A stretch of 64,000 nt of DNA from Medakamo hakoo. Lineage: Eukaryota > Chlorophyta > Trebouxiophyceae > Coccomyxaceae. The translations under genes and the position numbers were made by a program. The notes below the pieces were generated by a model, which saw only the letters and a list, made by a program, of their open reading frames with translations, searched no databases and was not told the DNA's origin. Below, piece after piece: positions 19,358 through 32,463 of this stretch (within the stretch, counting starts at the first letter, position 1; each line of letters opens with the position of its first letter). Location of the stretch: NCBI GenBank assembly GCA_026636295.1, contig CP089462.1:372001-436000 (forward strand). Reading direction: 5' to 3'.

Positions 19358-22052
<2,695 letters not shown>

Positions 22053-27674: not shown

Positions 27675-29021
27675 TTACTTCCCTTCATCAATGGGGAAGC
27701 TTCCCAGCACGCGCATGAAGGGCGCGACCTCTTGCAGGTGCCTCAACGCGTTTTGGGCGGGAGGGGACGCCAGGTTGGCCAGCACGTCAAAGTAAAAGAG
27801 GTAGCGGAAGGGCGAGGCGCCGTCGCCGCCGCCGCCCAGCGCCATGCCGGCCGCCGCCGCCGCGTCTGGCGTGAGCGGGCGGGACTCGACTTTCGACAGG
27901 TCGATGTCACGCAGGGCAAAGGCTGAGAGCGCTTTGAAGAGCGCGCCAGGCCCGTCGGGCAGCGCGCACACGAGCGAGGTGCGGAAGGGCCGGGCGTCGC
28001 CGGGCGAGGAGACGGCCGGGTCGCGGCCCAACACCAGGAACCGGGTCACATTGTCTTTCGAGTCCTGGATGGCGGACGCGAGGACGTCCAGGCCGTACAG
28101 TTCGGCGGCGCGGGCCGACGCAATGGCGCCCGCGGTCGGGTCGCCGGCGGCGGCGACGGCGGCGGCGGCGCCCGCCGTGTCGTCCGCGACGACGGGCGTG
28201 ACGGCCGGGCCCAGGCCGCGCAGGTAGCCGTCGCACTGGGCCAGGGCCTGGTAGTGCGACGCGACGGTGCGCAGCCCGCCGATGGACGCGCCCTTCACGC
28301 CCAGCAGGCAGTGCGAGACGGGGAGGGCGACCTCCCCCACGACGTGCAGGCGGTGGGCGAGGAGCAGGTCGTACACGGCGTGGATGGACCCGCCCAGCGA
28401 GTTTTCGATGGGCAGGACGGCCCTGTCCGCCAGGCCCCGCGCCAGGGCTTGGAAGGCGACGTCGAACTGGGCGCAGGGTACGGGCGCCCCCGACGGGAAG
28501 GCGGCCAGGGCGGCGGCCTCGGAGTAGGCGCCGGGGACGCCCTGGTACGCGACGCGGAGGGCGGACGCGGCCGGCGGCGGGGCGAGTGGGCGCGCGCCGG
28601 CGGGCGGTGCAGACGCGGCCGGCGCGCCGCCCGCCCCGACGCCGGGCGGGGCGACTTCCGGGGGTGGCAGGGAAGGCGACGGCGGTGCGGCGCCGCCGCC
28701 CTGCGTGCCGTCCACGGGCACGGCGGGCGCGGACAACAGGGGCGACCGCGGCGGCCCACCGTCCGGGGAGGCGGTGCTCGTGGAGGGGAGGGGTGCCCCT
28801 GCCGCGGCTGGGTAACAGCCCAGCACGCGCAGGTACGGCGCGAGCTCGCCCAAGTGCCGCAGCGCGTTGGAGGCGGCCGGGTCCGCCGCGTGCGCCAGGA
28901 CGTCGACGTAGAACAGGTAGTTGAACCGGCGGGAGGAGCCGTCCGTGGTGAGGAGCGGGGCGTCTGTGGAGTTGTGAATGGGAGGGACGGAAAAAAAAGA
29001 TGAGTGGGTTGGGGTTGCGCG

Positions 29022-29106
<85 letters not shown>

Positions 29107-30234
29107 CGCCCCCTCCCACCCGCCATCCGCACCTCTGGCCGGCCGGGACTCGATCTTGGTCAGGTCGATGCCGCGCAGGGCGAAGACGGACAAGGCCTTG
29201 AACAGCTGGCCGGGGCCGTCGGGCAGCGAAAAAGCGACCGACGTCTTGGCGGGCGGCGCGTCGGCCGCGGCGGCCGCGTCCGCGCCGCCGTCCGCCACGG
29301 GCGACGGCCGGGCCGGGTCACGGCCCAGGACGAGGAAGCGCGTCACGTTGACGGCCGCGTCCTGGATGCCGGCATCCAGGACGTCCAAACCATACAGCTC
29401 CGCGGCGCGTTCGGACGCGATGGCCGCGACGCCCGGGCGGGGCGACCGGGCCAGGTCGCGCGCCGCGCCCGCCGTGTCGTCCGCGGCTTCGCGCGTGATC
29501 GCTTTGCCGCCCGCCGCGCCCAGGCGGCGCAAGTAACCTTCACACTGTGCCAGCGCCTGCGGGTGGGACGTCACGGTGTGGACGTCCTCCAACGCCGTGC
29601 CGGCCGGGGCGAGCAGGCAGTGCGAGACGGCCAGCGCGACCTCGCCGGTCAGGTGGAGCGAAGCATACCGCAGGAGCAGGTCGTACACAGCGTGCACCGA
29701 CCCGCCCGCACTGTTTTCGATGGGCAGGACCGCCGTGTCCGCCAGCCACTGGGACAGGGCCTGGAAGGCGACCTCGAACTGGGCGCACGGCAGCGGGTCG
29801 GCGCCGGGCACGGCGGCGAGCGCGGCCTTTTCGCTGTATGCGCCCGGGACGCCCTGGTACGCGACGCGGGGCGGGCCCGATCCGGCGGACGAGCCGGACG
29901 CGGTGGCAGCTAGGGCCGCGACGGTCGTGCCCGTGGCGGCGGCGATGCGGGCGGTGGTGAGCGGTGCCGGGAAAGGCTGGGCAGGCGGGCTGCTGCTGGA
30001 GCGGGCGGTCGCGGCCGCAGCCGCGCTGGCCGTCGTCGTCGACGCGGCCTCCGCATCGGCCGTCGTCGCCGTCGTCGTTGTGACAGGGACCGCCCTCAGC
30101 TCTGCCGCCCTCTTGCCGAGTGGTGCACTGGGTCCAGCACCCATCGCACAGGCGGGCGGTCTGCGGACGGCGTGGCGCGCAATGCGGGGCGTGACTGGTG
30201 AAAGCGTGGCCAGCGGCGGCGCCGTCGCCACCAT
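27675..30234 (-). CDS. ADT: Double-module arogenate/prephenate dehydratase (PDT-ACT-PDT-ACT)
   Basis: Two exons (30234-29133, 28963-27675) give 796 codons in one frame. After a Ser/Thr/Ala-rich transit-like leader, module 1 (about residues 120-400) has [46 protein letters not shown] and the ACT motif [11 protein letters not shown]. Module 2 (about 505-790) repeats all of these: [57 protein letters not shown]. By eye the modules are roughly two-thirds identical, and both keep the TRF catalytic motif. The enzyme decarboxylates and dehydrates arogenate (or prephenate) to give phenylalanine (or phenylpyruvate), with feedback through ACT. Plant ADTs have one module of about 400 residues. The intron falls only in module 1, just after ESRP. 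An upstream in-frame ATG at 30,291 is an alternative start. Confidence 0.93.
29025..29104. repeat. (CT)40 microsatellite inside the ADT intron
   Basis: About forty perfect CT units on the plus strand, read as (GA)n in the pre-mRNA. The repeat occupies nearly half of the 169-bp intron (29132-28964), beginning about 30 bp after its donor. Confidence 0.97.
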
Positions 30235-30494: not shown

Positions 30495-32463
30495 ATGGCG
30501 CCCAAGAAGAAGCCGGAAGTCCCGGCCGAGAAGCCCATCATCGGCCGGTTCAAGTCCAACTTGAAGGTGTGCGCCGGGCACGCCGCGTCGTGGGGCGGGA
30601 GGTTGTTGGTCACGAGCGCGCTCCGCGCCGTCGGTCCGCCGTCGCCCCCCTGCCACGCCCAATCCCAGCCAGTTCCAGGCCTCTCCACTCCCGTCACGCA
30701 TGCTGCGGGATAGCAGCATGGCCTGGACATGGACGGCATGGCGTGGCTCGCACCCGCCGCCACGTCCTCCTCGCACGCTCGTCGATCGGCGCGCTCCCTC
30801 CCCGGGTGCGTGCGCACTCTCAACCTGCCCCCTCCATCCATCCCATCCCATCACGATGATGACAAAAAAAACAGATCGGCATCGTCGGCCTGCCCAACGT
30901 GGGCAAGTCCACGCTGTTCAACGTGCTGACCAAGATGGGCATCCCGGCCGAGAACTTCCCTTTCTGCACGATCGAGCCCAACTCGGTGAGTGTGTGGACG
31001 GCGGGCCGCGTTTTTCCCTACCCTCCTCCCCCAGGCACACAGCCCCCTTCCCCCCTTCCTCACGCCCCCGCTCACACACCACGACTCGACACAGGCCCGC
31101 GTCAACGTGCCCGACGACCGCTTCCGCTGGCTGGTCGACCTGTACAAGCCCAAGTCCGCCGTCCCCGCCTTCCTGGAAGTGGTGGACATCGCCGGCCTCG
31201 TCAAGGGCGCGGCGCAGGGCGAGGGCCTGGGCAACGCGTTCCTGTCGCACATCGCCGGCGTGGACGGCATCTTTCACGTGTGCCGGGCCTTTGAAGACGC
31301 GGAGGTCGTCCACGTGGAGGACCGGGTGGACCCGGTGGAAGACTTGGAAATCATTCACGGGTGCGTTTTGGCAGCGGCGGTGTGGTGCTTCATCCAATGG
31401 GGGGACACTCTCTCACCTCCGTCGCGCCCTCTCCCCCACCCCACCCCTGCCCCTCCAACAAACACACAGTGAGCTGCGCACCAAGGACATTGAGCGCGCG
31501 AACAAGTACGTGACGGACTTGAAGGCCAAGGAACGGCTGGGCCTGTCCAAGGAACAGAAGGAGGAGGTGGCCATCTCTGAAAAAGTGCGCGACTGGTTGG
31601 AGGCGGGCAACGACGTGCGGGCGGGCGAGTGGAGCGCGCGCGAGGTGGAGTGGCTCAACACCAACCCCATGATCACGGCCAAGCCCGTGGTCTACCTCGT
31701 CAACCTGACGGAGAAGGCGTACACGACCAAAAAGTCCAAGTGGCTGCCCAAGGTCGCGGCGTGGGTGGCCGAGCACGGCGGCGGCCCCGTCATCCCCTTT
31801 TCCGGCGCGTACGAGTCCCGCCTGTTTGACATGCCGGAAGACGAGGCGGCCAAAGCCCAGGAGGAAGCCGGCGCGCCGAGCGCGCTGCCCAAAATCATCC
31901 GCACGGGCTTTGCGCACATCCAGTTGATCTACTTTTTCACGGCGGGCGAGGACGAGGTCAAGTGCTGGCAAGTGCGCAAGGGGACGAAAGCCCCACAGGC
32001 GGCGGGCACCATTCACACGGACTTTGAGCGTGGGTTCATCTGTGCGGAGGTCATGGGTTACGAGACGCTGAAGGAGCTCGGGTCTGAGAACGCGGTCAAG
32101 GTGAGAGTGTGGGGCGTGGGGAGGGAAGGGGGGGTGGGGATGGGGTGGGGGATGGGCGCGGGTGGGGGTGGGGGTGGGTGAGCGCGCCCATGCCCCCATC
32201 TCACGCACGCCCCCACACCCCTTTCCTCGACCAACAGGCCGCGGGCAAGTACCGGCAGGAGGGCAAGACGTACGTGGTCGCGGACGGCGACATCATCTAC
32301 TTCAAGTTCAACGTGACGTCGAGCGGGTGCGTGTGTGTGTGCGAGGGCGACGGGTTGGATGCGAGAGGCGCACACCTGTGCCCTTGGCGCCCGGAGGAAA
32401 AAAAAAGAACCAAAAATCTCACTCGAATCCCACGCACAAAAAAATCTGAACAGGAAAAAATGA
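30495..32463 (+). CDS. OLA1: Obg-like ATPase 1 (OLA1/YchF)
   Basis: Six exons (30495-30566, 30875-30985, 31095-31360, 31470-32100, 32238-32326, 32454-32463) sum to 392 residues, the standard length. Motifs run in order: MAPKKK start, P-loop [12 protein letters not shown], switch region [10 protein letters not shown]3 [12 protein letters not shown] and the YchF-specific NxxE in [11 protein letters not shown]. The C-terminal TGS domain carries [26 protein letters not shown] and [14 protein letters not shown]. The NxxE replacement of NKxD makes the family prefer ATP over GTP. OLA1 is a cytosolic, ribosome-associated regulator of translation and stress. The last exon contributes only ten coding bases, giving the end SSGKK*, which matches the usual lysine-rich terminus. 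This is the most intron-rich gene in the window. Confidence 0.97.

Follow-up and report, generated by a model that had tools for sequence, protein, structure and literature searches.

A predicted double-module arogenate/prephenate dehydratase gene in the green alga Medakamo hakoo

Introduction

Does one gene of Medakamo hakoo, which is among the smallest green algae, encode two complete arogenate/prephenate dehydratases (ADT/PDT) in a single polypeptide? Enzymes of this family combine a catalytic domain with an ACT domain that serves feedback by phenylalanine (PMC11843938, PMC11439500), and reviews credit green algae with a single ADT gene (PMC3608921, PMC11843938). A first-pass annotation of the 64,000-nucleotide stretch analyzed here (positions 372,001–436,000 of contig CP089462.1; hereafter the window, whose numbering we use for this locus) had claimed the order PDT-ACT-PDT-ACT in one reading frame of 796 codons. 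The genome was reported (PMC9871001) to comprise 18 contigs (two of them organellar) with 15,811,321 bp, a longest contig of 1,473,234 bp, and 72.7% GC; the main text of that paper makes no mention of a dehydratase, duplication, tandem, fusion, or phenylalanine.

Gene model and intron

The ADT gene occupies positions 27,675–30,234 of the window on the minus strand, running from a start ATG at 30,234 to a TAA stop codon at 27,677–27,675, and once spliced it reads PDT-ACT-linker-PDT-ACT in 796 codons plus the stop. The coordinates and codon count of the first-pass annotation fit this spliced model, but the intron had gone unstated: the 796-codon frame exists only when 169 nt inside ACT1 (29,132–28,964) are removed, and in the unspliced sequence module 1 is read in a different frame from module 2 and the end of ACT1 that adjoins it, its C-terminal half. 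Without splicing, the module-1 frame stays open for 775 codons by chance and is nonsense after ESRPAR; chance open frames are frequent in DNA as GC-rich as this.

In the model built from frame and splice sites, exon 1 (29,133–30,234, 1102 nt) holds the N-terminal extension, PDT1, and the first half of ACT1, and exon 2 (27,675–28,963, 1289 nt) holds the second half of ACT1, the linker, PDT2, ACT2, and the TAA, both on the minus strand. Between them lies a phase-1 GT-AG intron (28,964–29,132, minus strand, GTGCGG...CCACAG), whose borders read GAG followed by GTGCGGAT at the donor and ACAACTCCACAG followed by ACG at the acceptor, and which contains an uninterrupted 80-bp run of (GA)n (29,025–29,104), the length of which has no effect on the frame. 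Four introns of the neighboring OLA1-like gene (30,567–32,237), whose exons once joined give one continuous protein, have the donors GTGTGCG, GTGAGTG, GTGCGTT, and GTGAGAG and acceptors that end in ACAG, and the ADT intron is of this same GTGNG...ACAG type. Moreover, the alignment of the spliced ACT1 with its counterpart in 2qmx, a PDT of solved structure, extends from KTS to the C terminus across the splice junction. From its splice sites and the comparison with neighboring introns, we infer that the ADT intron is removed in vivo.

Methionines of the spliced protein that lie in frame are found at residues 1, 31, 741, and 784. The intron itself contains an ATG (29,124–29,126, minus strand) that shares the frame of exon 2 and could start a product devoid of module 1, made of a few residues, an Arg-Glu repeat, half of ACT1, and then module 2. 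Residues 1–122 (29,869–30,234, minus strand) are rich in Ala, Thr, Pro, and Ser, contain Arg, and have few acidic residues, a composition that makes them a candidate plastid transit peptide plus spacer. Because codon scores over these residues do not favor the used frame (0.05, versus 0.08 in another frame), the exact start of the ADT gene is less sure than the modules.

Integrity and relationship of the two modules

Both catalytic domains match PF00800 over profile positions 1–180, PDT1 at 29,314–29,865 (TRF at 29,335–29,343) and PDT2 at 28,017–28,553 (TRF at 28,038–28,046), each on the minus strand. With scores of 195.7–197.1 bits for module 1 and 204.2–205.6 bits for module 2, so far above the cut-off of 25.2, chance resemblance is excluded. 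The ACT domains, on the same strand, follow their catalytic domains. The N-terminal half of ACT1 (29,133–29,244; ESRP at 29,140–29,151) was placed by profile match and alignment with 2qmx, its C-terminal half (28,809–28,963) by the 2qmx alignment that continues into exon 2, and ACT2 (27,693–27,980; ESRP at 27,876–27,887) by its PF01842 score, the 2qmx alignment, and its identity to ACT1. PF00800 and PF01842 had each been expected twice; PF00800 is indeed found twice, but for PF01842 only ACT1 passes the cut-off of 27 bits, at 28.8, while ACT2 scanned by itself reaches 19.4. Module 2, ACT2 included, aligns with 2qmx over its whole length, and ACT2 matches ACT1 in 53 of 91 columns (58% identity), its loop after ESRP being the longer of the two.

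To judge the motifs we used bacterial PDTs from 39 of 44 loci as a reference, the five partial matches being left out, and considered the 42 columns in which at least 85% of these sequences agree. Each module keeps 40 of the 42, including in both the N, T, R, and F of NVTRF (T and R are present in 39/39 bacterial rows, and F in 38/39) and the ES of ESRP, and the alignment bears out the claim that TRF and ESRP persist in both modules. One of the departures, a G-to-A change, is common to both modules; the other is F to V at position 20 in module 1 and Y to F in module 2. At the GxLF effector motif, module 1 reads GQLF and module 2 reads GALF, Ala being the residue in 30 of the 39 bacterial PDTs; the names of ESRP and of the GALV-type effector motif follow PMC10845154.

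None of the bacterial PDTs compared, nor 2qmx, is as similar in sequence to either module as the modules are to one another. They share 60% identity by BLASTP (187/314, gaps counted) or 66% in a MAFFT alignment, compared with at most 48% to the 39 bacterial PDTs and, to 2qmx, 48.5% for module 1 (131/270) and 50% for module 2 (132/264). A phylogeny of the modules had been proposed as a check on the locus, and in two trees they came out as sisters with 100/99 support and effectively equal branches (0.27 and 0.26, or 0.30 and 0.30 with 2qmx added), module 2 being among the eight rows flagged in each tree for unusual letter make-up. The modules and 2qmx were grouped in only 6% of 200 bootstrap trees, so no bacterial donor of the algal family can be assigned. 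Between the modules dN is 0.27 and dS 0.69, which points to constraint, although the ratio is only rough; we give it little weight because, with GC3 at 92%, synonymous change is close to saturation.

These comparisons bear on the possibility that the gene is fused and its modules have diverged in role, one having become regulatory or shifted in its preference between arogenate and prephenate, a course known from other duplicated allosteric enzymes. As a sub-case of the reading we favor, this has perhaps a modest chance of being right: an identity of 66% leaves room for specialization, and the modules differ in the GxLF residue and the loop of ACT2 described above, but both retain TRF and ESRP and have branches of equal length. 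Both also have the Ala of FKALS, which we take to be the Ala314-type position for prephenate use. The PAC-domain rule for substrate preference has exceptions in soybean (PMC10845154). The more specific proposal of the first-pass annotation, an arogenate-specific module beside a prephenate-specific one, is unsupported, since the branches are equal and neither module has lost more conserved positions than the other; at the level of sequence, two different specificities find no positive support beyond ordinary divergence.

Linker between the modules

Whether the modules are joined turns on the linker, an 84-residue segment rich in Pro, Ala, Gly, and Ser (residues 420–503; 28,557–28,808, minus strand). 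It has no stop codon in the coding frame, and neither the linker nor any other part of exon 2 upstream of module 2 has an ATG in any frame. A scan of 28,556–28,830 for intron-like GTRNG/[ACT]CAG pairs separated by 50 nt or more found none. At 85% GC, compared with 62% in the 5′ and 3′ flanks of the ADT gene, the linker is unlike the adjoining intergenic DNA. Among the linker frames, the used one has the best codon score, though a low one (+0.22 bits per codon, versus +1.2 in the modules), as expected for a Pro/Ala-rich sequence. Taken together with the modules, these properties point to a real double-module gene, intact in appearance and very probably expressed as one chain.

A single translated chain could nonetheless be a polyprotein, cut at the linker in the plastid to give two ordinary ADTs. 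This sub-case of one-chain expression would suit the length and composition of the linker, which resembles a second transit peptide, but no processing site is known in it. We know of no precedent that we could name for such cleavage of an ADT/PDT enzyme, and consider it improbable.

The same Ala/Pro/Ser richness, together with the fact that the modules are clear tandem paralogues, might lead one to think that two adjacent genes, each for a single-module enzyme, had been misread as one. We think this very unlikely given the missing stop after module 1, the absence of an ATG in exon 2 before module 2, and the difference in GC content between linker and flanks; a separate module-2 gene would need either an intronic or a non-ATG start. 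That gene copies were joined or duplicated in assembly is hardly credible, because the long (GA)n repeat that might invite such an error sits inside ACT1 rather than between the modules, the assembly was built from PacBio reads at a coverage of 246.8 (PMC9871001), and the modules, whose aligned coding sequences mismatch at 29% of nucleotides, are neither two alleles nor one copy repeated.

Copy number and genomic neighborhood

A six-frame Pfam search of the assembly (16 contigs, 15,638,232 bases) returned only two PF00800 matches, both within the ADT gene. Because no other PF00800 locus was detected, the double ADT probably supplies the phenylalanine of the alga. A further dehydratase is unlikely, if not strictly excluded, since the six-frame Pfam search missed arogenate dehydrogenase: the PF02153 and PF20463 profiles found no match in the M. 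hakoo genome, and a protein search found one match to the plant-type enzyme (C2:89,595–90,359, 63% identity to the query). Pfam screens can miss arogenate dehydrogenase in an algal genome.

LHC-like open reading frames, apparently of green type, are in keeping with a green alga. The M. hakoo genome also contains a gene of the phenylalanine hydroxylase family (PF00351; C4:74203–75123). The idea that tyrosine is made from phenylalanine only, with the doubled ADT carrying all of the flux, was rejected when the plant-type arogenate dehydrogenase was found. With both this dehydrogenase and phenylalanine hydroxylase present, tyrosine need not come from phenylalanine alone, and phenylalanine may also feed tyrosine through the hydroxylase.

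On its 5′ side the ADT gene stands head-to-head with a plus-strand gene for an OLA1/YchF-like GTPase (30,495–32,328, at least four GT-AG introns); as the two are divergent with 260 bp between their start codons, a shared promoter region is likely. On its 3′ side it stands tail-to-tail, 268 bp apart, with a plus-strand gene for elongation factor P (PF08207, PF01132, and PF09285; 26,855–27,406), for which a plastid-targeting exon may lie upstream because the open frame begins almost at the EF-P domain. Elsewhere in the window is a near-perfect (TG)57 tract (20,401–20,514).

Search for other double modules

The first-pass annotation knew of no described double-module dehydratase, and likewise a search of open-access full texts for a fused, tandem, duplicated, or two-domain dehydratase found none. 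In three groups of bacteria, 84 of 149, 127 of 151, and 193 of 200 genomes had a PF00800 match, and inspection by eye of the matches listed revealed no side-by-side pair on the same strand; the only close pair among them (G208:C61) is on opposite strands. In a separate set, seven of seven genomes, some of which recur in these groups, had one PF00800 match each. The 19 candidate stretches on viral contigs included no relative. Matches were present in 78 plasmid records, all below 60% identity (15 of the 78 records being listed).

Discussion

The reading that we favor is that a tandem duplication very likely gave rise to a single, covalently doubled arogenate/prephenate dehydratase. An ancestral single-module gene for the plastid enzyme would have duplicated in tandem, and the two copies would have become one gene through loss of the first stop codon and the second start codon, leaving the region before module 2, perhaps an old second transit peptide, as the in-frame Pro/Ala linker. 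The gene would now give one mRNA, from which the intron in ACT1 is removed, and one protein, presumably imported into the plastid, with two dehydratase sites, both predicted to be active, and two phenylalanine-binding ACT domains.

ADT/PDT enzymes dimerize or assemble through ACT–ACT contacts, and because they do so, the most likely partner of ACT1 is the ACT2 of the same chain. Such pairing would yield a pre-assembled pseudo-dimer that combines two active sites with one paired effector region, possibly joining another chain as a pseudo-tetramer and presumably subject to feedback by phenylalanine. At its simplest, the benefit would be that each transcript supplies more active sites and that assembly is obligatory. 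The intramolecular dimer and asymmetric phenylalanine feedback foreseen in the first-pass annotation are reasonable inferences. A stronger version, in which the modules form an obligate intramolecular hetero-pair, with ACT1 and ACT2 acting as one asymmetric phenylalanine sensor and the modules having begun to divide labor (for example, one loosely regulated or accepting prephenate), seems to us rather doubtful; if true, a single gene would do the work of the separate ADT isoforms of land plants.

A covalently doubled ADT would offer a natural test of control by ACT pairing, in which each site can be inactivated separately within one chain. The retention of two conserved modules in a 15.8-Mb genome suggests that the pair is useful. 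The gene also qualifies review statements of a single, unduplicated ADT in green algae (PMC3608921).

Compared with known systems, the M. hakoo protein resembles the ADT/PDT proteins of plants and green algae (for example, Chlamydomonas Cre06.g261800), as these are described, in having PF00800 and ACT domains, TRF, ESRP, and an N-terminal extension; like those of green algae it is encoded by a single gene, the only one detected. It differs in that the known proteins are described with one catalytic and one ACT domain (PMC11843938), whereas two complete modules are predicted in the M. hakoo chain. Two modules per chain are, on this prediction, a departure from the usual ADT/PDT and not a ground for leaving the family. 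The best-scoring solved relative of both modules, 2qmx (which we take to be from Chlorobium tepidum), is a single module of 283 residues that presumably assembles from separate chains. In bacterial AroQ-PheA fusions (PMC1173090), PDT-ACT lies within a longer polypeptide as it does in M. hakoo, but the partner is chorismate mutase and not a second dehydratase.

The closest parallel lies in the sister branch of the same pathway. Rippert & Matringe reportedly described, in 2002, a double arogenate dehydrogenase of Arabidopsis with two similar catalytic units, both said to be active; we take this enzyme to be TyrAAT1/At5g34930. This dehydrogenase has a fold different from that of the dehydratase and is not known to have an ACT domain. 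TYRAAt1 is targeted to chloroplasts (PMC8145761). Like the predicted M. hakoo ADT, the double dehydrogenase has two catalytic units per polypeptide, but it makes tyrosine, and its homologue in M. hakoo shows one match. Beside the Arabidopsis enzyme, the double ADT would be a second case in which a whole unit was duplicated in tandem at the last steps of phenylalanine and tyrosine synthesis in the plastid. It is best regarded as a doubled version of a known enzyme, for which the same pathway offers a good precedent.
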